DNA of 12,688 bases, from NCBI GenBank assembly GCA_013330825.1, contig DUHN01000041.1, forward strand, positions 1-12,688, given 5' to 3'. Shown here one piece after another: positions 1,499 through 10,861 of the stretch. The notes beneath the pieces were generated by a model. The model was not told the origin of the DNA, did no database searches, and worked only from the letters and a program-made list of their open reading frames with translations. Source of the stretch: Candidatus Woesearchaeota archaeon (lineage in GTDB: Archaea; Nanobdellota; Nanobdellia; Woesearchaeales; GW2011-AR4). A program made the position numbers and the translations under genes. Each line of letters begins with the position of its first letter. The first letter of the stretch is position 1.

Positions 1499-3181
1499 AT
1501 GAAAGACATTATCAGGAAGTACGCGCTGCTCAACGCCGTGCAGCATGACGGCACGGCCAGCCAGGGCGCGGTGATGGGCAAGGCCATCGCCGAGAAGCCG
1601 GAGCTGAAAGGGGACATGGGGGCGCTGGCAAAGGAAATCGCTTCTGTCCTCAAGGAGGTCAACGCCCTTTCCCCCGAGGACCAGAAAAAAGAGATGGAGA
1701 AGCTCGGCCCGATAGAGAAGCCGGAGAAGAAGCAGCGCGAGGGGCTTCCGGACCTGCCGAATGTCAAAGGAAAGGTCGTCATGCGCTTCGCCCCCAATCC
1801 GAACGGGCCGCTGCACATCGGCCACGTGCGGCAGGCCATCCTCAATGACGAATACGTGAAGCGCTACGGCGGCGAGTTCATCCTGCGCTTTGATGACACC
1901 GATCCCAAGACAGAAGGCAAGCAGCCGATGAAGGAGGCATATGACTGGATGGAGCGGGACCTGGAATGGCTCGGCATCGTCATCGGAAAGGTATCTGCTG
2001 CCTCCTCAAGATTGGAAATCTACTATGCCCATTTCGGGAAACTGCTGGAGATGGGCAAGGCGTATGTCTGCACATGCGATGCTGAGCGCTGGCGGAAGAT
2101 GAAGGAGCGCAAGGAGGCATGCCCCCATCGCGAAGAGCAGCCTGCCGCCCAGGAAGAGCGCTGGAGGAAGATGCTTGGCGATTGCGAAGAGGGCAAAGCG
2201 GTTGCCCGCATCAAGACGGACATTTGCCATCCCGACCCTGCCGCGAGGGACTGGGCCGCGTTCCGCATCATCGCCAGGCCGAACCACGCGAAGACGGGAA
2301 ACACATACCGGGTGTGGCCCCTGCTGGACTTCGCCTCGGCCATCGACGACCATGAGTTCGGCACCACCCACATCATCAGGGGCGTCGACCTGAACATCAG
2401 CGAGGTGCGGCAGCGCTTCCTCTACGGCTACTTCTCCTGGGAATACCCCTCGGCGATCACGACGGGCAAGTTCTCGGTCAAGGATACCCTGATGAGCAAG
2501 TCCAAGATATTCGCGGGCATCTCCACGGGAGACTTCACCGGCTGGGACGATCCCCGCTTGGCGACCATCATGGCGCTGCGCAGGAGAGGCTTCAACGCCC
2601 GGGCCATACGGAACCTTATCCTGGAAGTCGGCATCAATGCGGCGAACATCGAGATCGACATGGTGGCCTTGGAGGCGCACAACCGGAAGCTCATCGACAG
2701 CAAGGCCAGCAGGTATTTCTTCGTCGAGGATCCGCACAAGGTGGCGGTGAAGGGAGCGCCTTCCCAGACCGTGGAGCTGAAGCTGCATCCCGATGACGCC
2801 GGCAGGGGGAAGCGGGCGCACAAGACCGGGGAGGAGTTTTTCATCTCCGGGAAAGACCATGATATGCTGAAGAAGGGCAAGCTCTACCGGCTCATGGACT
2901 GCCTGAACTTCGTGTGGGAGGGGAAGGATGCGTCGTTCCATTCCCTTGCGCACGACGAGTACAGGAAAGGCGGCGAGAAGATCATGCACTGGCTGCCCGT
3001 TGGCGAGCATCTTGCCGACGCCGAGGTGATGATGCCGGACAGGAGCGCGGCGAAGGGGGTGGCCGAGCAGATGGCCGGGGGCCTCAACGTCGGAGATGTC
3101 ATCCAGTTCGAGCGCTTCGGGTTCTGCAGGCTGGACGCGAAGGAAGGGAAACTATTAAAATTCTGGTACACTCACAAGTAA
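1499..3181 (+). CDS. gltX: Glutamyl-tRNA synthetase, archaeal type
   Basis: Class I synthetase that charges tRNA-Glu. In archaea lacking GlnRS the enzyme usually also mischarges tRNA-Gln for later amidation by GatDE; whether that holds here is not visible. At 560 aa it has the usual archaeal length. Residues 1-90 form the charged helical N-terminal extension. The catalytic Rossmann domain carries RFAPNPNGPLHIGH with the HIGH signature at 106-109, LRFDDTDP at 129-136, and the KMSKS-type loop LMSKSK at 331-336. Residues from about 400 onward match the beta-barrel anticodon-binding part seen in the archaeal/eukaryotic GluRS-GlnRS branch. The ATG lies 30 nt after a TATA box and there is no room for an SD, so the mRNA is probably leaderless. 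Only 1 nt separates its stop from the next gene. Confidence 0.97.
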   Translation: MKDIIRKYALLNAVQHDGTASQGAVMGKAIAEKPELKGDMGALAKEIASVLKEVNALSPEDQKKEMEKLGPIEKPEKKQREGLPDLPNVKGKVVMRFAPNPNGPLHIGHVRQAILNDEYVKRYGGEFILRFDDTDPKTEGKQPMKEAYDWMERDLEWLGIVIGKVSAASSRLEIYYAHFGKLLEMGKAYVCTCDAERWRKMKERKEACPHREEQPAAQEERWRKMLGDCEEGKAVARIKTDICHPDPAARDWAAFRIIARPNHAKTGNTYRVWPLLDFASAIDDHEFGTTHIIRGVDLNISEVRQRFLYGYFSWEYPSAITTGKFSVKDTLMSKSKIFAGISTGDFTGWDDPRLATIMALRRRGFNARAIRNLILEVGINAANIEIDMVALEAHNRKLIDSKASRYFFVEDPHKVAVKGAPSQTVELKLHPDDAGRGKRAHKTGEEFFISGKDHDMLKKGKLYRLMDCLNFVWEGKDASFHSLAHDEYRKGGEKIMHWLPVGEHLADAEVMMPDRSAAKGVAEQMAGGLNVGDVIQFERFGFCRLDAKEGKLLKFWYTHK

Positions 3182-3367: not shown

Positions 3368-3928
3368 TCATCCCTTCTTTTTTCCCTTCTGCCCCCTCTT
3401 CTTCACGATGGCGATTATCGAGTCAATGAGCCTGTCGAGGGGCAGCGTCGTGGTGTCCACGATGTCCGTGTAGAGCTTCCTGTCCGTGTAGTCGACGTCG
3501 TAATAGTGCTTGTAGCGCTTCCGCTCGCTCTCCTCGCGCCTCTCCATGTTGGCGAGGGTCTCCTCGAACGTCTCGGTGCGCTCGTCGCTCCGCTGCGCGC
3601 GGAGGATGCGCTCGGCCCTGGTCCTGGGGTCCGCCTCCAGGAAGATGCGGGCGTCTGCCCGGGGGATGAAGAACGCCGCCAGCCGGCCGTCAATGACAAA
3701 ATCATGCTCCGTCTCCCCCAGCTTTGCGAGGCGGCCGTCCAGCTCCTTGTCGATGGACTGGTCTTTTTCAGCCAGCTTGTTGAGCTCGAGGAGGGGGATG
3801 CTCCTCTCCGCGGCCATCTGCCGCATGACATCACCCACAGAATAATGCTTCAGCCCGAGCTTGAGGGAGAGCTGCCTCGCGATGGTGCTCTTGCCAGAGC
3901 CTGCCTTGCCGGAGAGGGTGATTATCAT
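3368..3928 (-). CDS. cmk: Cytidylate kinase, archaeal type
   Basis: Phosphorylates CMP and dCMP with ATP in pyrimidine nucleotide metabolism. The 186-aa product begins MIITLSGKAGSGKST, with the P-loop at G7-T15. It continues with the archaeal Cmk features FVIDGRLAAFFIP (78-89), a lid-like arginine segment RTRAERILR (102-110), EESERKRYKHYYDVD (132-146) and YTDIVDTT (153-160). The open frame extends further upstream, but the ATG at 3928 gives the canonical N terminus and lies 29 nt after a TATA box (minus-strand TTTTTAAA, 3950-3957), so the mRNA is probably leaderless. The C terminus is a lysine/glycine tail (KKRGQKGKKKG). It converges with the GluRS-histone operon, and the lysine codons give that operon a U-tract on the opposite strand. 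Confidence 0.95.
   Translation of the reverse strand: MIITLSGKAGSGKSTIARQLSLKLGLKHYSVGDVMRQMAAERSIPLLELNKLAEKDQSIDKELDGRLAKLGETEHDFVIDGRLAAFFIPRADARIFLEADPRTRAERILRAQRSDERTETFEETLANMERREESERKRYKHYYDVDYTDRKLYTDIVDTTTLPLDRLIDSIIAIVKKRGQKGKKKG
3377..3384 (+). terminator. U-tract likely ending the GluRS-histone transcript
   Basis: CTTTTTTC begins 15 nt after the stop of the small histone gene, inside a longer C/T-rich stretch. It is the antisense of the lysine codons in the cmk tail, so one sequence serves as coding tail on one strand and as probable terminator on the other. Confidence 0.45.
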
Positions 3929-3957: not shown

Positions 3958-4023
3958 CGTTGTTGCGCTGGAGGGAGGATGAAATTGTTGAAAAGCGCAT
4001 CATCGCCGCCTCCAGCGGAGAAG

Positions 4024-4147
4024 GTTTCGCGCGGCCCCCCATGCTGCATGGGCCGCGCATTAATCGGTGCGCCCGCACTGGGGCGCACTAATGGATGCGC
4101 CGCGCAGGGGCAATGGACGCGGCGCGTAACTATCCCCGCGAAGCGGG
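4024..4147. repeat. Triple-hairpin GC-rich element, copy A
   Basis: Intergenic element between the cmk promoter and the UPF0182 promoter. Stem 1 pairs 4029-4037 with 4050-4058 (GCGCGGCCC/GGGCCGCGC). Stem 2 pairs 4067-4074 with 4081-4088 (GTGCGCCC/GGGCGCAC). Stem 3 pairs 4097-4104 with 4118-4125 (GCGCCGCG/CGCGGCGC). Linkers of 8 nt separate the stems. An alternative outer stem pairs 4024-4032 with 4122-4130 with one mismatch. A smaller hairpin, CCCGC-GAA-GCGGG, follows at 4135-4147. A second copy with the same architecture lies at 10540-10682. No open frame fits it and no U-run follows it, so an intrinsic terminator is unlikely. It could be a dispersed palindromic repeat or a structured RNA. 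The rest of the 3929-4228 gap holds only the flanking promoters and a short palindrome, GGCACGTGCC. Confidence 0.8.
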
Positions 4148-4199
4148 CAAGGGCAAAGATGGCCAGGCACGTGCCCATATATCGCGGAGGAGCGAAGCG

Positions 4200-4207
4200 T
4201 TTATAAG
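4200..4207 (+). promoter_or_regulatory. TATA box of the UPF0182 gene
   Basis: TTTATAAG, 29 nt before the ATG at 4229, as expected for a leaderless transcript. Confidence 0.7.
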
Positions 4208-4228
4208 ACTCCAAGCATTACCCTACCC

Positions 4229-6907
4229 ATGGAGCCCGTCATGCCGGAGCGGAGGAGGCCAAATTTCACGTTCCAGTTCATCATTCTCGGCATTTTCCTC
4301 GCCATCACGCTTTCCCGGATCTATGTCGACTGGCTGTGGTTCGGCTCCCTCGGCTACCTTGCCGTGTACAAGACCATGCTGTTCACCAAGATCCTGGTGG
4401 GCGCCGCCATCGCCGCCCTGTTCTTCCTTTTCCTTGGGGGCAACGTGTGGATCGCGGACAGGAGGGCCAAGCTGGCGAAGGCCGCGCCGTACTACAGCAT
4501 CGCCGCCGGCATCTCGGTAATCGCGGGCTTCATCGGCAGCGCGTTCTGGTTCGTGGTGCCGCGGTTCGCGGAGGCCGCGCCGTTCGGCTTCGTCGAGCCC
4601 TTGTTCAAGAGGGACCCGTCGTTCTACATGATGGCGCTGCCGTTCTACCAGGCCCTCATCATCACCGTGTCGCTTGCCGTCCTCGCCGCGCTCGGGCTGA
4701 CGCTGGCCGCCTACTTCTTCTCCCAGAAGCCGAAGAAAGCCGCGCGTCCGGCAGAGCAGCCTCCCGAGGGGGCGGAGCAGCGCATCACCCAGTTCACCGT
4801 CGGCCTGCCGCAGAAGGGCAGGGACCATCTCGCCGTGCTCTTCGGCGTGCTGCTCCTCGCGGCAGGGGCGTTCTTCTGGATACGCAGGTATTCCCTGCTC
4901 TTCTCGCACCGCGGCGCGGTGTACGGGGCGGGATTCACCGACGTGCATGTCGCTCTCCCGCTGTACGCCATCCTGACGCTCCTCGCGCTCGCGGCCGCTG
5001 GCGTCGTGATGGCCTACCCATGGCACAAACGCGGCAAGCTCCTCCTCTCCGCAAGCTTCCTCGTGTTCGGCGTGTTCTTCGGCGGCATGCTGGTCTCCGG
5101 GCTGGTGCAGGCGCTCTACGTCGAGCCGAATGAGTTCAACCTCGAGCAGCAGTATATCCAGGAGAACATCAAGCACACGCTCTATGCGTACGGCCTGACG
5201 GATGTCTCCGTCAAGGACTTCCCTGTCACCTATAACCTCTCGGCGAAGGACATCGCCGCGAACAAGCAGATGATCGACAACATCCGGCTGTGGGACTGGA
5301 GGCCCCTATTGACCACGTACCAGCAGCTCCAGCTCTTCCGCACCTACTATGACTTCGTCGACGTGGACATCGACCGGTACACCATCAACGGCAGGATGAC
5401 CCAGCTCATGACCTCGCCGAGAGAGCTTGACCAGCAGCAGCTCGACGCGAAGGCGAAGACGTGGATCAACGAGAAGCTGGCGTACACCCACGGCTATGGG
5501 GTGGTGACGTCGCCGGTCAACAAGATCTCCAAGGAGGGGCTTCCCGACCTCTTCGTGCAGGACATCCCCCCCAAGAGCGGGTTCGCGGAGCTTGCCATCA
5601 GCGAGCCGCGCATCTATTTCGGCGAGAAGACGGACAGCTTCATCATCACCGACACCAAGGCGAACGAGTTCGACTATCCGCTGGGCAACGACAACGTCTT
5701 CACGACCTACAACGGGAGCGACGGCATCCTGCTCAACGGTCTGGCGAGGAAGCTCGCGTTCTCCATCAACCTGGGATCGCTCAACCTCATGATCTCAAGC
5801 GCGCTGACGCCGGACAGCACGGTGCTCATCAGGAGGAACGTCGTGCAGCGCGTGAAGACCCTCGCGCCGTTCCTGCAGTACGACAGCGACCCGTACATCG
5901 TCATCGCCAATGGCAGGCTGTACTGGATCATCGACGCCTATTCCAGCTCGAACCGGTTCCCGTACAGCGAGAGCACGTATGGCGTCAATTACATCAGGAA
6001 CGCGGTCAAGGTGGTGGTGGACGCGTACAATGGCGACACCTCCTTCTACATCGTGGACAAGGGCGACCCCCTGACCCAGAGCTATGCGTCCATCTTCCCG
6101 ACGCTGTTCAGGAGCTTCGATGACATGCCGGACGCGCTGAAGCAGCATATCCGCTACCCCGAGGAGCTGTTCAGGATACAGAACGGGATGTACGGCGTCT
6201 ATCACATGAAGGATCCGCAGGTCTTCTACAACAAGGAGGATGTCTGGCAGACGCCGAATGAGATCTATGACCGCGAGCAGGTCGAGATGGAGCCTTACTA
6301 TATCATCCTCAAGCTGCCGGAAGAGAAGAAGGAAGGATTCTTCCTCATCCGTCCCCTGATTCCCCGTGGAAAGGACAACATGATCGCGTGGATGGCCGCT
6401 TCCTCCGATCCGGACAGATACGGCACGCTGGAAGTGTTCAAGCTCAGCAAGCAGGAACTGACGTACGGGCCGATGCAGATAGAGGCCAGGATCAACCAGG
6501 ACACGGACATCTCGCAGCTCTTCACCCTGTGGGGGCAGCAGGGATCGCAGGTCATCAGGGGCAACATGATCGTCATCCCCATCGAGCACAGCTTCCTCTA
6601 CATCGAGCCGGTGTACCTCAAGGCGTCCGCCGGCGGGGCGCTGCCGCAGCTCAAGCGGGTTGTCGTCGCGTATGAGGACAAATTGACCATGCAGCCGACG
6701 CTGGATGAAGCATTGCAGGTGCTGTTCGGGGCATCCACCGGCAAGCCACAGGAGCAGGAAGAAGAGAGCATGCTGTCAGGGACCATCGGGGAGCGCTTCG
6801 CGCAGGCTTCCCGATTGTACGATGAGGCCCAGGCAGCGCTGCAACAGGGGGATTTTGCCACCTACGCGCAGAAGATCGAGGAGCTGGGCAGAATTCTGGA
6901 ATCGTAG
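4229..6907 (+). CDS. UPF0182 family large membrane protein
   Basis: The 892-aa protein has the UPF0182 (COG1615) layout: seven hydrophobic segments in the first 300 residues (about 12-32, 52-72, 90-112, 133-164, 200-219, 240-262 and 270-296), then a long soluble domain of about 590 residues. The family signature EPNEFNLEQQYIQENIKHT follows the last membrane segment at 299-317. The C terminus has the typical pattern of an acidic linker (EQEEE) and a helix containing QGDFATYAQKIEELGRIL. The biochemical function of the family is unknown; the topology suggests a membrane-anchored protein with a large domain on one face, probably outside. The ATG at 4229 lies 29 nt after TTTATAAG. Codons end overwhelmingly in G/C, as expected of a long-resident gene. 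It appears monocistronic, with a histone promoter just downstream. Confidence 0.93.
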   Translation: MEPVMPERRRPNFTFQFIILGIFLAITLSRIYVDWLWFGSLGYLAVYKTMLFTKILVGAAIAALFFLFLGGNVWIADRRAKLAKAAPYYSIAAGISVIAGFIGSAFWFVVPRFAEAAPFGFVEPLFKRDPSFYMMALPFYQALIITVSLAVLAALGLTLAAYFFSQKPKKAARPAEQPPEGAEQRITQFTVGLPQKGRDHLAVLFGVLLLAAGAFFWIRRYSLLFSHRGAVYGAGFTDVHVALPLYAILTLLALAAAGVVMAYPWHKRGKLLLSASFLVFGVFFGGMLVSGLVQALYVEPNEFNLEQQYIQENIKHTLYAYGLTDVSVKDFPVTYNLSAKDIAANKQMIDNIRLWDWRPLLTTYQQLQLFRTYYDFVDVDIDRYTINGRMTQLMTSPRELDQQQLDAKAKTWINEKLAYTHGYGVVTSPVNKISKEGLPDLFVQDIPPKSGFAELAISEPRIYFGEKTDSFIITDTKANEFDYPLGNDNVFTTYNGSDGILLNGLARKLAFSINLGSLNLMISSALTPDSTVLIRRNVVQRVKTLAPFLQYDSDPYIVIANGRLYWIIDAYSSSNRFPYSESTYGVNYIRNAVKVVVDAYNGDTSFYIVDKGDPLTQSYASIFPTLFRSFDDMPDALKQHIRYPEELFRIQNGMYGVYHMKDPQVFYNKEDVWQTPNEIYDREQVEMEPYYIILKLPEEKKEGFFLIRPLIPRGKDNMIAWMAASSDPDRYGTLEVFKLSKQELTYGPMQIEARINQDTDISQLFTLWGQQGSQVIRGNMIVIPIEHSFLYIEPVYLKASAGGALPQLKRVVVAYEDKLTMQPTLDEALQVLFGASTGKPQEQEEESMLSGTIGERFAQASRLYDEAQAALQQGDFATYAQKIEELGRILES

Positions 6908-6926
6908 CCCGGTACAAATCCAAAAC

Positions 6927-6934
6927 TATATAAA
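6927..6934 (+). promoter_or_regulatory. TATA box of the histone gene
   Basis: TATATAAA, 64 nt before the histone ATG. A start about 25 nt downstream would give a leader of roughly 35 nt containing GGAGGGG at 6968-6974. The histone mRNA is therefore probably leadered, although the SD lies about 16 nt from the ATG, farther than usual. Confidence 0.6.
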
Positions 6935-6990
6935 TCTCCGGGAGAAAGAAATGATTTCATAAAGACTGGAGGGGCGATTTACTAGTTCTC

Positions 6991-7203
6991 ATGCCGCGGA
7001 AGACTCTCATCATCCCGAAGGCGCCGCTCGCGAGGCTCATGGAGCATGCGGGGGCGCAGCGCGTGGGCAAGGATGCGTGCGAGGAGCTGAGCGGGTTCCT
7101 CATCGATTACGCCCTTGCCGTTGCGAAGAAAGCGTCCGAGATCGCGCAGCATGCCGGCAGGAAGACCGTCAATGCGGGCGACGTGAAGCTGGCGGCTAAG
7201 TGA
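6991..7203 (+). CDS. Archaeal histone (HMf-like)
   Basis: Small DNA-wrapping chromatin protein, 70 aa. It aligns by eye with HMf-type histones: helix 1 IPKAPLARLMEHAG (8-21), AQRVGKDA before helix 2 (27-55), then AGRKTVNAGDVKLAAK with the conserved RKTV loop at 57-60 and the helix-3 DVKLA at 64-68. It has a short basic N-terminal extension (MPRKT) and stops right after LAAK, lacking the RRF-type end of HMfB. The leader contains GGAGGGG but it is distant from the ATG. A GC hairpin begins at the stop codon. It is one of two histone-fold genes in the window. Confidence 0.96.
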   Translation: MPRKTLIIPKAPLARLMEHAGAQRVGKDACEELSGFLIDYALAVAKKASEIAQHAGRKTVNAGDVKLAAK

Positions 7204-7242
7204 TTCTCAACCAACGCGCGCTGTGGGGGCGCGCCAAGAATC
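7202..7242 (+). other. Hairpin overlapping the histone stop codon
   Basis: GCGCGC at 7216-7221 pairs with 7229-7234 around a 7-nt loop, and GATTCT (7202-7207) pairs with AGAATC (7237-7242) as an outer stem. No U-run follows. It could stabilise the 3' end of the histone mRNA, or be a decayed relative of the GC hairpin elements at 4024 and 10540, but similarity to those is weak. Confidence 0.4.
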
Positions 7243-7286
7243 CGCGAAGCACCATCATCGGCAGGTTCTGTTGCGCTAAAGGGTGG

Positions 7287-7294
7287 TTTATAAG
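7287..7294 (+). promoter_or_regulatory. Orphan TATA box upstream of tRNA-Ala
   Basis: TTTATAAG with no recognised gene at the usual distance. An ATG at 7313, 26 nt downstream, opens only a 16-codon frame ending at the tRNA-Ala TATA box. It could be a secondary tRNA promoter or drive a very short transcript. Confidence 0.35.
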
Positions 7295-7356
7295 TCGGTT
7301 ATTCACGGATAAATGTATCACCTCCCGACAACGCACCACTACCCATCGGCATTAGT

Positions 7357-7364
7357 TTTATAAA
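7357..7364 (+). promoter_or_regulatory. TATA box of tRNA-Ala
   Basis: TTTATAAA, 33 nt before the first base of the tRNA. The box before the CAT tRNA lies at 32 nt, so the tRNA leaders are probably only a few nucleotides long. Confidence 0.75.
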
Positions 7365-7389
7365 CAAAACGTATCACCATTTCCTTCAA

Positions 7390-7463
7390 GGGCAGGTGGT
7401 TCAATCCGGTAGAACACCCCGTTGGCTTCGGGGAGGCTGGGGGTTCAAATCCCCCCCTGTCCA
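7390..7463 (+). tRNA. tRNA-Ala (anticodon GGC)
   Basis: 74-nt cloverleaf: acceptor GGGCAGG/CCTGTCC, D stem GTTC/GAAC with GG in the loop, anticodon stem CCCCG/CGGGG, T stem GGGGG/CCCCC with loop TTCAAAT, and discriminator A. The anticodon GGC (7424-7426) reads the alanine codon GCC, and the acceptor contains the G3-U70 pair that marks alanine tRNAs. Position 37 is T instead of the almost universal purine, which makes the identity slightly less certain; the D arm is also reminiscent of proline or tryptophan tRNAs. CCA is not encoded. It ends 2 nt before the stop codon of the convergent hypothetical gene. Confidence 0.9.
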
Positions 7464-7465
7464 CC

Positions 7466-8491
7466 TTATTTTCTTGTAGGGGCGTATTGCGAGAATGGCA
7501 CGATGTTTACCGGGCTGAGCTTGATGTACACTTCGTAGTTGAGCCCTCCTTTCTCCGCGGCGAATGTGCCTTCTCCCTTGAAGTGCTGGGGGATGTAGAT
7601 TGTCTGCCCTTTCATGTTCTTAAAGACGTCGGACCTGAGCGTGCGCGGATAACCTTCAACAGGGTGGAAACAGACACCGTCCAAAGAGCTTTGCGCCCCC
7701 AGTTTCAGCAATTCTTTCCTGGAGAGGACACGGTACACGGGCCTGTCCACGGTTTTCGACAGTTTGGTGTTGGCCTTGCCTCTCTTCGCAAGGCGCTCTT
7801 GGGTTGTGCGATACGCATTCGTCTCAAGGCGGATGATGAAGTTTCTGGGGTCCATGATGTACACTATCTGCTCCATCCCCATCATCGTTGCACGGGAGAG
7901 GTCCCGAATCATGTCTTGCGGGAGAGTCTCCCGTTCATGCGCAGGGACGTCAATCTTGTCAGGCGCTCCCATATGGAGATAGAGAGGTGCAATAGCCATC
8001 CTAACTCCTATGTTTTCCGGGCCTGTGTTTTCAATCTCCCTGATGGTGACGTCTCCAGAGAAGAGAATGTTCTTTGCAGGATATTTGGACCCTTTTGCCG
8101 TATCGCTGTGCGCCAAAGACCGCCGCTTTTTTTCCCATCTGAGCGATGTGGTGCGGAATGTGGCTCCTTCCTGATAATCAAGAAACACGACCGATTCATC
8201 ATCTTCGATGGCAGTCAGGGGAAAAGGGGTGATAAAAAAACGGCCATGCTGTTGGGAGAGCCCCATATAGCCTCCGAGGGCATCGCAAAAGGCGGCCTTG
8301 TCTCCTTTGAACCGGCTGAATATTTCTGTGGATGAGAACGGCAGCTCAAAGAGGGAAGAATCGCGCACAAGGTGCTCAAGATAACGAGGGGGATTCTCCA
8401 GCCCAAGGTCCATTTCAAAGGTGTGCAGGGGGGTGCGCCTATGCTCAAAGTCCTTGAGCTTGTCCACCAGTCCGTCGAAGTAGTCTCCCAT
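7466..8491 (-). CDS. Hypothetical protein, family not recognised (341 aa)
   Basis: I do not recognise this family. The 341-aa product starts MGDYFDGLVDKLKDFEHRRT. It has no signal peptide or clear membrane span and reads as a soluble protein with mixed alpha/beta character. Notable segments are SVVFLDYQEGATFRTTS (about 100-116), MGMEQIVYIMDPRNFIIRLE (about 204-223), a basic stretch RTTQERLAKRGKANTKLS, and a C-terminal QTIYIPQHFKGEGTFAAE. The ATG at 8491 lies 30 nt after a TATA box, so the start is well supported and the mRNA probably leaderless. Codon choice is more relaxed than in the GC-rich neighbours, suggesting an accessory gene. It stands alone, convergent with tRNA-Ala and divergent from the phosphoesterase operon. 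Confidence 0.8.
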   Translation of the reverse strand: MGDYFDGLVDKLKDFEHRRTPLHTFEMDLGLENPPRYLEHLVRDSSLFELPFSSTEIFSRFKGDKAAFCDALGGYMGLSQQHGRFFITPFPLTAIEDDESVVFLDYQEGATFRTTSLRWEKKRRSLAHSDTAKGSKYPAKNILFSGDVTIREIENTGPENIGVRMAIAPLYLHMGAPDKIDVPAHERETLPQDMIRDLSRATMMGMEQIVYIMDPRNFIIRLETNAYRTTQERLAKRGKANTKLSKTVDRPVYRVLSRKELLKLGAQSSLDGVCFHPVEGYPRTLRSDVFKNMKGQTIYIPQHFKGEGTFAAEKGGLNYEVYIKLSPVNIVPFSQYAPTRK

Positions 8492-8513
8492 GCCAAAAGG
8501 GATACCGGAAGTG

Positions 8514-8521
8514 TTTATAAA
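8514..8521 (-). promoter_or_regulatory. TATA box of the 341-aa hypothetical gene
   Basis: Palindromic TTTATAAA, 30 nt before the ATG at 8491 on the minus strand. Confidence 0.65.
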
Positions 8522-8580
8522 TTTGCCCCTTTTAAGTAGTTATATCCTACCCAGGTGTTCTCTTCCAGGCAATCAACAGG

Positions 8581-8588
8581 TTTATATC
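8581..8588 (+). promoter_or_regulatory. TATA box of the phosphoesterase-HIT operon
   Basis: TTTATATC, 30 nt before the ATG at 8611. The spacing supports that start over an upstream TTG at 8596 and suggests a leaderless first cistron. Confidence 0.65.
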
Positions 8589-8610
8589 GTTTCCGTTGCC
8601 CCTCCGGCGA

Positions 8611-9432
8611 ATGAGGCTGCTCTATTCCTCGGACCTGCACGGCAACAGGAAGGCGTATGGGGCGCTTCTTGAGCGGGCGTCCCGCGACGATGTGGATGCG
8701 CTGGTGCTGGGCGGGGACCTGTGCCCGCGGGGAGGCTCTACTCTTGGTGAGTGGATCGCTGCCCAGAGGGAGTTCCTGGAGAGCTTTCTCGTGCCATTGT
8801 TTTCCCCGTTCAAGAAAAAATATCCCGCCAAGAACATTTTTGCCATCATGGGAAACGATGACTTCAGGAAGAATGCCGATGTGCTTGAGAAGGCGGAGAA
8901 GGAAGGCGTCCTGCACTTCATCCACAAGAAAAAGGCGGAGCTGGGGGGCGGGTTTTTTATCGCCGGCTACGGCTTCGTCAACACCACCCCTTTCCGGCTG
9001 AAGGACTGGGAGAAGAAAGACCTTGAGGGGGCGAAGATGCCGCCGCAGCTCTCTTCTGAAACGGTGCGGAGCGTCCCCGAGGAGAAGGGCACGATTGCGG
9101 AAGACATGGAAGACATTGCGGCGCTTTCTGACCCGCGGAAGACCGTCTACGCCATCCATGCGCCGCCGTTCAACACCAACCTCGATATTGCCTCTTCAGG
9201 CCAGCACGTCGGGAGCGTTGCGATACGGGATTTCATCGAGAAGCATTCCCCCCTGGCGACGCTGCACGGCCACATCCACGAGTCTCCAGAGATGTCGGGG
9301 TCGTGGATGGACGTCCTCGGGACGACAGTCTGCGTCAATGTGGGCAGCGCGTATCCGAGACCCATCTTACCCTGCTGCGCCATTGATACGGAAAGCATCA
9401 CTACACTCTCCTATGAGGAAGTCCTTTTATGA
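8611..9432 (+). CDS. Calcineurin-like metallophosphoesterase, Icc-like
   Basis: Predicted two-metal phosphoesterase of the calcineurin-like fold; the substrate is unknown. All five metal motifs are present in 273 aa: D8-x-H10 (SSDLHGN), GGD at 34-36, GNDD at 81-84, H183 (YAIHAPP) and GHIH at 220-223. Between the third and fourth motifs lies an insert of about 90 residues rich in Lys and Glu. The archaeal group of Icc-related phosphoesterases has a similar size (from memory). The ATG at 8611 is preferred because it begins directly with the first catalytic strand and lies 30 nt from the TATA box. Its stop overlaps the start of the next phosphoesterase (ATGA), showing an operon. Confidence 0.93.
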   Translation: MRLLYSSDLHGNRKAYGALLERASRDDVDALVLGGDLCPRGGSTLGEWIAAQREFLESFLVPLFSPFKKKYPAKNIFAIMGNDDFRKNADVLEKAEKEGVLHFIHKKKAELGGGFFIAGYGFVNTTPFRLKDWEKKDLEGAKMPPQLSSETVRSVPEEKGTIAEDMEDIAALSDPRKTVYAIHAPPFNTNLDIASSGQHVGSVAIRDFIEKHSPLATLHGHIHESPEMSGSWMDVLGTTVCVNVGSAYPRPILPCCAIDTESITTLSYEEVLL

Positions 9433-9915
9433 TAGCGCTGATATCGGACACCCACGAGAACGAGGAGGCCATCAAGAAAGCCGTTGCCGCCATCAAGGCG
9501 CGCGAGCCGGAGTTCACCATCCACCTGGGGGACATCATCTCTCCCCCAATGCTGGAGCATTTCAAGGGACTGAAGATGAGAATTGTTTTCGGCAATAATG
9601 ACGGGGAGCGGGTTGGGCTTGCACAGAAGGCAACATCGCTCGGCTTTGAGGAGCCGAAGGAAGAGCTGGAAATGGTGCACAAGGGCAGGAAGCTGTATGC
9701 GTACCACGGCACGGACAAGGATAGGCTGGACCAGCGCATCTTCTATGGCGGCTATGAATTATGTCCTGACCGGCCACACGCATGCCAAGAGGGATGAGAA
9801 GGTGAAGCAGACCCGGGTGATCAACCCAGGGGCATTGTTCCGGTGCACTCCTTACACGATCGCGTTCCTTGACGTCGAGAAAGACGGCGTTGAGTTTGTC
9901 GAGATACCAAGATGA
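9429..9915 (+). pseudogene. Frameshifted YfcE/MJ0936-like phosphodiesterase
   Basis: A small metallophosphoesterase split by one extra base. The first frame starts at 9429, overlapping the previous stop (ATGA). It carries D7-x-H9 (ISDTHEN), GD at 34-35, GNND at 55-58 and HGT at 93-95, then leaves the family at residue 111 and ends at 9797. The next frame continues with YVLTGHTHAKRDEKV, INPGALFRC and a family-like C terminus ending at 9915. Removing one A from GAATTAT at 9756-9762 gives YDYVLTGHTH and a 161-aa protein of normal family length. The downstream stop overlaps an ATG by 1 nt, which suggests the full frame was translated until recently. It may be a real mutation, a sequencing or assembly error, or, less likely, a programmed +1 shift. 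Confidence 0.85.
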
Positions 9916-9935
9916 TCAATGATGAGGTGAGCACC

Positions 9936-10358
9936 ATGGACAACTGCATCTTCTGCAAGATCGTCGCCGGGCAGATCCCGTCCGCCAAGGTCTATGAGGA
10001 CCATGAGACGTTCGCGTTCCTGGACATCGCTCCCGCGAACAAGGGGCACTGCCTGGTGGTGCCGAAGAAGCATATGGCAACCGTCGAGGAGGCCGCTCCA
10101 GAGGCGCTGGCCGCGATGATGAGGGCGGCGAAGAAGGTCGCGCGGGCAATTTCTTCGGCGCAGGGCAACACCGCGTACAACATCGTGGTGAACAACGGCA
10201 GGGAGGCCGGGCAGATCGTGTTCCACCTGCACCTCCATGTCATCCCGCGCTATGCCGATGACGAGCTGGTGATCGACTGGGAGCGGGCCAAGCGCCGGGC
10301 GAAATACGCTTCCGGAGAGATAGAGCAGGTGCGGCTCGCGATTGGGAAGTTCTTGTAG
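9936..10358 (+). CDS. HIT family hydrolase (HinT-like)
   Basis: Histidine-triad nucleotide hydrolase or transferase, typically acting on AMP conjugates or dinucleotides in the cytoplasm. The 140-aa product begins MDNCIFCKIVAGQIP. C4 and C7, with H46 and H97, form the zinc site of the family. The triad HLHLH is at 97-101, with H99 the expected nucleophile. The frame is also open from an ATG at 9912 that overlaps the previous stop, but the ATG at 9936 gives the canonical N terminus and has a good SD, AGGTGA, 7 nt upstream. It is the last gene of the phosphoesterase operon; all three are small phosphate-ester enzymes, so a shared nucleotide-related role is possible (inference). A tRNA promoter follows 5 nt after its stop. 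Confidence 0.95.
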   Translation: MDNCIFCKIVAGQIPSAKVYEDHETFAFLDIAPANKGHCLVVPKKHMATVEEAAPEALAAMMRAAKKVARAISSAQGNTAYNIVVNNGREAGQIVFHLHLHVIPRYADDELVIDWERAKRRAKYASGEIEQVRLAIGKFL

Positions 10359-10363
10359 CAACG

Positions 10364-10371
10364 TTTATAAA
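10364..10371 (+). promoter_or_regulatory. TATA box of the CAT-anticodon tRNA
   Basis: TTTATAAA, 32 nt before the tRNA and directly after the HIT gene. Confidence 0.75.
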
Positions 10372-10395
10372 ACAAGTTTTTGTCCCCGGTGGTGA

Positions 10396-10502
10396 GGCAG
10401 TGTAGCTCAGTGGTTAGAGCGCGTCGCTCATACCGCAGCGGTCCTTTTTGATCGGCTGCGCCGGAAACGACGAGGTCGCGAGTTCAATTCTCGCCACTGC
10501 CA
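10396..10502 (+). tRNA. tRNA-Met (CAT), with a 34-nt intron
   Basis: Acceptor GGCAGTG/CACTGCC, D stem GCTC/GAGC, anticodon stem CGTCG/CGACG, T stem GCGAG/CTCGC and discriminator A are all perfectly paired. Between the two anticodon-stem strands lie 41 nt instead of 7. The best mature loop is CTCATA plus A, which places the intron at 10433-10466, between positions 37 and 38, the usual archaeal site. The intron contains its own helix (CGCAGC/GCTGCG). The four exon bases before the 5' cut do not pair well with CCGG before the 3' cut, so the bulge-helix-bulge is relaxed, and the cut could shift by a base. The sequence cannot distinguish elongator Met from the Ile2 tRNA that carries modified CAT; the acceptor does not look like an initiator. 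Confidence 0.9.
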
Positions 10503-10539
10503 CTTTAGTTCTCAATTTGCCCAATGGAGAATATCATTG

Positions 10540-10682
10540 CCCGCTTGGCGGGAGAATCTAGGCGCGCCCTCCAGAGCTGCACCGGGCGCGCATGCATTGG
10601 TGCGCCCACATTGGGACGCACTACGATTGCGCCGCGCAAGGGACAATGGGCGCGGCGCCTAGAATTCCCGCCCGCAGGGCGG
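10540..10682. repeat. Triple-hairpin GC-rich element, copy B
   Basis: Second copy of the element at 4024-4147. Stem 1 pairs 10562-10569 with 10584-10591 (GCGCGCCC/GGGCGCGC). Stem 2 pairs 10600-10607 with 10613-10621 with one bulged A. Stem 3 pairs 10629-10636 with 10651-10658 and has arms identical to copy A. An outer stem pairs CTAGGCGC (10558-10565) with GCGCCTAG (10655-10662). It is flanked by two small hairpins, CCCGC-TTG-GCGGG (10540-10552) and CCGCCC-GCA-GGGCGG (10668-10682). The core is 97 nt in both copies. It lies between two tRNA genes and ends 12 nt before a TATA box. No coding capacity is seen. Confidence 0.8.
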
Positions 10683-10694
10683 CCATGATGAAGG

Positions 10695-10777: not shown

Positions 10778-10861
10778 GCGGAGGTGCCGGAGCGGTCAAA
10801 CGGGGTAGGCTTAGGACCTACTGGCTTAGTGCCTACGCAGGTTCGAATCCTGTCCTCCGCA
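10778..10861 (+). tRNA. tRNA-Leu (anticodon TAG)
   Basis: 84-nt class II tRNA with acceptor GCGGAGG/CCTCCGC, D arm CCG/CGG, anticodon stem GTAGG/CCTAC with loop CTTAGGA giving anticodon TAG, long variable arm with GGC/GCC stem, T stem GCAGG/CCTGT with loop TTCGAAT, and discriminator A. It reads the leucine codon CUA. No intron is present. Partial copies of its acceptor sequence occur on both sides (10727-10765 and 10930-10946). Confidence 0.96.

Follow-up and report, generated by a model that had tools for sequence, protein, structure and literature searches.

Introduction

Palindromic repeats built from short hairpins are well known in bacteria. REPINs are inverted doublets of repetitive extragenic palindromic (REP) sequences that go with RAYT transposases, and a clover-like fold has been proposed as the form recognized by the transposase (PMC3116915). 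In Streptococcus pneumoniae, BOX elements, RUP and insertion sequences (IS) are described as over-represented between convergent genes (PMC3049150). Here we describe two multi-hairpin elements in a 12,688-nt stretch of DNA (the window) from Candidatus Woesearchaeota archaeon, which is contig C23 (GenBank DUHN01000041.1) of a draft genome of 1.157 Mb in 83 contigs, 87% complete. They are best read as a REPIN- or BOX-like, probably mobile DNA repeat. The view we favor, with a probability of roughly 0.55, takes both sites as members of a palindromic repeat family that is lineage-specific and non-autonomous, spreads slowly from one intergenic site to another and functions as folded DNA.

Like REPINs, these elements are short, intergenic, multicopy inverted pairs of hairpins with compensatory stem changes (PMC3116915), and their short palindromic units form inverted pairs that fold into a hairpin or clover. 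Unlike REPINs, they have CATTG or CAATG loops, two to four hairpins with mutually different stems, TCATNG ends and, in the source genome, end hairpins; their copies number tens, not hundreds. No linked RAYT (Y1) transposase was found, and REPIN membership therefore fails; REPINs may still be nearest in mode of action. With BOX the elements share a layout of modular intergenic stem-loops, variable inner modules and no transposase of their own (PMC3049150). The sequence and the host domain are different; the comparison with boxA-boxB(n)-boxC covered the modular layout. Short, multicopy, intergenic repeats with inverted ends and stable stem-loops also include the prokaryotic miniature inverted-repeat transposable elements (MITEs) (PMC10969869). 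The elements described here differ from these in their GC-rich stems, and neither a target duplication nor a parent transposon was found. The attC site of integrons is a folded single-strand site that begins with RYYYAAC, ends with GTTRRRY and lies in cassette arrays. Elements of the relatives carry GCCTAAC/GTTAGGC-like heptamers and resemble attC as folded single-strand sites, but the heptamers, read by eye, stand in the opposite order, and the copies lie isolated among chromosomal genes and not in cassette arrays; an attC identity was rejected on both counts.

Results

A preliminary description of the window had placed a 97-nt core with three hairpins at each site, with linkers of 8 and 8 nt in copy 1 and of 8 and 7 nt in copy 2. 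All of these spans were reproduced (Table 1). The description had also stated that the arms of hairpin 1 are unlike between the copies with pairing retained, and that the arms of hairpin 3 are identical; we found the former as described, and agreement of the hairpin 3 arms across 8 bp. Both elements extend beyond the coordinates first proposed, to about 4000-4153 and 10534-10688. On either side there is a further hairpin, the end hairpin, and a terminus resembling TCATNG, which is degenerate at the right of copy 1.

Table 1. Coordinates of the two elements and of neighboring genes in the window
Feature	Position	Strand	Basis
Copy 1, whole element	4000..4153	no strand	Covariance model R1 match 4000-4155 (+), 3999-4153 (-); ends from sequence
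Copy 1 left end TCATCG	4000..4005	no strand	Sequence reading; TCATNG consensus of 39 ends
Copy 1 left end hairpin CCGC/GCGG	4006..4018	no strand	Sequence reading
Copy 1 hairpin 1, stem allele A (GCGCGGCCC)	4029..4058	no strand	
Copy 1 hairpin 2 (GTGCGCCC, loop GCACTG)	4067..4088	no strand	
Copy 1 hairpin 3, stem allele C (GCGCCGCG)	4097..4125	no strand	
Copy 1 right end hairpin CCCGC/GCGGG	4135..4147	no strand	Sequence reading and end comparison
Copy 2, whole element, ends TCATTG ... CCATGA	10534..10688	no strand	R1 match 10534-10690 (+), 10533-10688 (-)
Copy 2 left end hairpin CCCGC/GCGGG	10540..10552	no strand	
Copy 2 hairpin 1, stem allele B (GCGCGCCC)	10562..10591	no strand	
Copy 2 hairpin 2 (GTGCG/CGCAC, inner CCC/GGG offset)	10600..10621	no strand	
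Copy 2 hairpin 3, stem allele C (GCGCCGCGC)	10629..10658	no strand	
Copy 2 right end hairpin CCGCCC/GGGCGG	10668..10682	no strand	
Cytidylate kinase gene, start facing copy 1	3368..3928	-	Pfam PF13189
UPF0182 gene, start facing copy 1	4229..6907	+	Pfam PF03699
tRNA gene, 31 bp left of copy 2	10396..10502	+	Rfam RF00005
tRNA-Leu gene, 89 bp right of copy 2	10778..10861	+	

Further copies were sought with a covariance model, as the preliminary description had proposed. Model R1, built from 11 copies, gave 44 matches in the source genome at an E value of 0.1 or better. These correspond to at least 22 places, each matched on both strands (the weakest at E 1.3e-4); the count rests on the best 150 of 647 candidates and is a lower bound. 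Searches by blastn with the two window copies gave 12 and 14 matches in the same genome. The resemblance of the two sites is not due to chance. Related archaea carry elements as well (see below). The preliminary description had staked its proposal on the existence of more copies and on covariation, and since both were found, it survives.

A complete copy measures about 155 bp. It opens with TCATNG and a short end hairpin and closes with a second end hairpin and CNATGA; between them lie three GC hairpins, of which hairpins 1 and 3 have 9 bp, separated from each other by 8-nt linkers and from the end hairpins by about 10 nt. The element reads nearly the same on both strands, and its terminal inverted repeats consist of TCATNG at both ends plus the end hairpins. 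Among 39 ends, conservation covers positions -6 to -1 of the end hairpin and does not exceed 0.32 bit at -7 to -16. Where both end hairpins were found, 13 of 18 copies pair one of the CCCGC type with one of the CCGCC type, and the remaining five have a variant end hairpin (C79, C4, C32a, C65 and C7); none of the 18 has identical end hairpins. Six places hold two core hairpins (C66b, C45, C65, C44, C61 and C7), the middle hairpin of C4 is degenerate, and N gaps interrupt C37, C55 and C14. These three copies and C45 touch N gaps; assembly apparently breaks at the repeats, so that the number of copies is probably an underestimate.

Stem covariation is real. Alignment A1 comprised 11 of the first 16 copies known, the short or cut copies C7, C66b, C45, C37 and C44 being excluded, and 93.9, 86.1 and 93.8% of cells paired in hairpins 1, 2 and 3, respectively. 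None of 500 shuffles reached the covariation score of the whole structure, outer stem included, and a partner shift of 1 to 3 columns lowered the score from 0.243 to 0.080 or less. When the loop-closing pair is set aside, hairpins 1 and 3 have 1 of 88 cells unpaired each and no one-sided change except within another pair type. In genome G008, where 15 element places were read, the two hairpins of 13 aligned copies pair in 100 and 97.8% of cells, and the whole-structure score was again reached by 0 of 500 shuffles. The alternative outer stem of the preliminary description did not hold across the copies: 50.9% of cells paired in the 11 copies versus 51.5% in shuffles (307 of 500 as high), and an outer closing stem was rejected as a covarying feature of the family, being at chance level in the source genome. 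In G008 this stem pairs in 70.8% of cells, below the shuffled mean of 73.4%, and is therefore conserved there in sequence rather than covarying; the outer inverted repeat of G008 pairs in 59.4% of cells, and the closing stem of a mixed short-core alignment in 76.3%. Long-range pairing of hairpin 1 with hairpin 3 was likewise rejected (500 of 500 shuffles equal or better).

When 17 of the 22 source-genome elements and 13 of the 15 from G008 were folded, every scored hairpin was kept in 28 of 30 elements as DNA and in 24 of 30 as RNA; only perfect stems found by script were scored, which leaves out the degenerate third hairpin of C75 and C22. An RNA gene or cis-acting RNA family, transcribed at each site, would account for the covarying multi-branched fold and for the longer forms with conserved linkers found in a related genus (g5; G004 and G011). 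Against it stand the near identity of the element with its own reverse complement, the model matches on both strands at every place, the better retention of hairpins as DNA, and stem changes that are mostly G-C versus C-G with hardly any G-U. Moreover, no Rfam family matched the elements in the window, in 4 source-genome loci or in 8 loci of relatives (E 1). We consider a structured RNA quite improbable.

The outer stems of one element differ from each other. Source-genome stem alleles are A (GCGCGGCC), B (GCGCGCCC) and C (GCGCCGCGC), plus one variant. The first stem equals the last in 0 of 19 source-genome elements (expected 6.0, P 0.0005) and in 0 of 15 from G008 (expected 4.7-5.2, P 0.001-0.002). 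The source-genome figure covers 19 of the 22 places, as C45, C55 and C14 are without one outer hairpin, with alleles assigned by eye and degenerate stems included. After collapsing to distinct combinations the effect is not significant (P 0.15 and 0.22, respectively), so common descent of the copies may carry much of the pattern. Equal stems would permit one long hairpin, or loss between direct repeats, and either would give the pattern.

R1 also gave weak matches in two genomes of the same family, which on reading were multi-hairpin elements with CATTG or CAATG loops. A short-core model, R2, built from 12 sequences, matched at least 8 of the 287 genomes in the order, every one of them from the source genome's family (at least 18 family genomes among those listed), and at least 3 of 330 genomes of the class, again all in that family; the best 16 to 18 candidates per genome were scored, which makes these counts lower bounds. 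Other genera of the family thus carry related elements with two to four hairpins and CATTG/CAATG loops. One g5 element matches 12 stretches in G004 and 8 in G011. The element at G004:C9 and G011:C9 is 82% alike across 208 nt; it shows two-sided stem differences, and its flanks are unmatched. At orthologous sites of these sister species, a GGC/GCC stem in one is GCC/GGC in the other (C38/C5 at 17949; C27/C9). At the orthologous sites G004:C26 and G011:C5 (11099), flanks of 1.39 and 1.55 kb align on the plus strand at 85%, and the 164-nt element between these collinear flanks aligns on the minus strand at 88%. This element was either turned around where it stood or inserted on two occasions in opposite orientations. 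A second repeated hairpin of about 50 nt (query 1150-1200) has many copies in G004 and G011, also within the clover elements.

Both template switching and transposition could give the inverted element. Template switching is described as homogenizing arms and inverting spacers (PMC8604942) and as yielding multibase compensatory changes (PMC8794818). Mutation alone would make these old repeats in which template switching repairs stems and inverts segments, with no current mobility or host use. The inversion and the nearly unbroken pairing of hairpins 1 and 3, with no lone one-sided changes, agree with this. Left unexplained are the origin of 22 dispersed copies and the nearly pure G-C stems, as templating could turn a C to T change into an A-T pair; the differing outer stems are explained only through deletion of equal ones. 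Of the readings weighed here we hold mutation alone to be the least probable.

Few copies lie between convergent genes: 1 of 44, versus 21 of 143 gaps without copies (Fisher P 0.016). The count used a codon-score gene finder and was confined to copies flanked on either side by called protein genes, 17 in the source genome and 27 in relatives; the single convergent case rests on a weak gene call. For the source genome alone the figures are 0 of 17 versus 15 of 97 (P 0.02-0.06). Seven of the 22 source-genome copies have a tRNA gene at a distance of at most about 115 bp (22 tRNAs were called in the assembly), six by called tRNAs (C23b, C15, C79, C32a, C32b and C55) and C45 by a tRNA start that the contig end truncates and that was read by eye. 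A TATA-like site does flank both window copies, as noted earlier, but this does not extend to the family as a whole: an outward TATA-like site within 70 nt occurs at 10 of 22 copies versus about 25% expected (P 0.03).

This setting would suit a chromosomal or promoter-side site at which a protein recognizes the clover or the CATTG/CAATG loops and organizes the chromosome or tunes promoters, with host need keeping the copies. The scarcity in convergent gaps, the tRNA genes and the TATA-like sites speak for it, as do sites that recur across genera: the 3' side of GluRS in G003 and G008, the same downstream gene in source C26 and G046, and likewise in source C44 and G003. On the other side, only two source-genome copies flank a gene that flanks a copy elsewhere (judged near chance, with no formal test), the convergent effect is modest per genome, and sequence, length and hairpin number vary widely. 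We regard a protein-binding site as unlikely. A transcription terminator was rejected because copies are rare between convergent genes, although G008 copies have A-runs/T-runs outside.

Several features of these loci were observed in passing. The GluRS locus has an element in three genera: directly after the gene in G008 and G003, and about 0.8 kb downstream of it, past two genes, in the source genome (GluRS at window 1499-3181). Archaeal RNase P RNA (L010 1806-2203, minus strand) lies about 570 bp from the copy at C66:1084. The tRNA match left of copy 2 is 107 nt, longer than a plain tRNA, and probably has an intron; it was absent from the ARAGORN output in bacterial mode. A phosphoesterase-like gene (window 9429-9915, plus strand) is seemingly split over two frames (open reading frames 9429-9797 and 9583-9915) by a frameshift or assembly error. 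Pfam also found genes for an archaeal-type histone (PF00808) and an E/Q-type aminoacyl-tRNA synthetase, both in keeping with an archaeal host.

Discussion

Dispersal, sharp ends and the presence of the same element at unrelated sites speak for mobility. Among the readings first offered (mobile palindromic repeat, protein-binding site and structured RNA), the mobile repeat is the best supported; selection on structure, then taken as the simplest cause, is not forced, because template switching between hairpin arms, as described in the two reports cited above, can give two-sided changes (PMC8794818, PMC8604942). As an explanation of the paired changes, template switching competes with selection, and pairing almost without one-sided intermediates fits either. 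The nearly pure G-C stems and the differing outer stems favor some selection.

The searches turned up neither a linked transposase nor a target duplication nor an empty site, and the mechanism is therefore inferred. The outer stems of one element differ, so that a strand folds into a clover whose hairpins stand apart. The mover may be an enzyme provided in trans that recognizes either this fold or, on a single strand or an extruded cruciform, the TCATNG ends, and that would move the element without leaving a target duplication. Hairpin-templated repair through template switching, selection for the fold, or the two together would uphold the pairing. A bolder version, which we put forward only tentatively and think unlikely, is a new class of archaeal structured mobile DNA: neighboring hairpins would be selected for unlike stem words so that the strand folds only as a clover, and the clover, not the sequence, would be the substrate of a single-strand transposase or recombinase also able to invert the element in place.

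Several observations weigh against a mobile repeat working as folded DNA or weaken the case for it. Four orthologous sites are retained between the two sister species, so movement is slow at best, and the flanks of G004:C9 and G004:C31 matched only elements and no flanks in G011 (80% complete), where no empty site was found. Target site duplications, a check proposed in the preliminary description, showed no excess at k 2-10 on the 13 of 22 source-genome copies with clean ends. Y1 transposase genes occur in 18 of 36 family genomes and in none of the source assembly's contigs, and R2 had no match on the 12 Y1 loci examined. Two of five covariation measures fell within shuffles; pairs with two-sided change were reached by 17 of 500 shuffles (A1) and 79 of 500 (G008), and further pair types by 76 and 141 of 500. 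Several RNA folds favor one long hairpin over separate ones. Finally, the elements are under-represented in convergent gaps, whereas BOX and the other pneumococcal repeats are reported as over-represented there (PMC3049150).

Other searches for a parent or a carrier gave the following. Hairpins beside the Y1 genes are without a CATTG/CAATG loop (12 loci, the gene rightly located in 10), and no half elements, as a parent with the same ends would have, were among the R1 matches listed at E 2 in the 87%-complete assembly. Plasmid carriage was rejected for want of a match. For viral carriage, one pattern gave 4 matches, which on reading had no CATTG-loop hairpins, and three other patterns gave 0. 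A pattern search of genome contigs gave 51 matches, all bacterial by title, which we took as chance without reading them individually.

In the open-licence literature, covered by titles and opening abstracts and with subscription papers mostly outside it, we found no description of such repeats in this archaeal group. The elements have so far been found in one family of archaea, probably small-genome and DPANN-like. This family of repeats offers many natural compensatory stem changes, both between copies and at orthologous sites, and is a test case for template switching versus selection and a natural test of hairpin evolution. Should the differing-stem rule be borne out by further genomes, it would indicate that what is selected is the folding itself.

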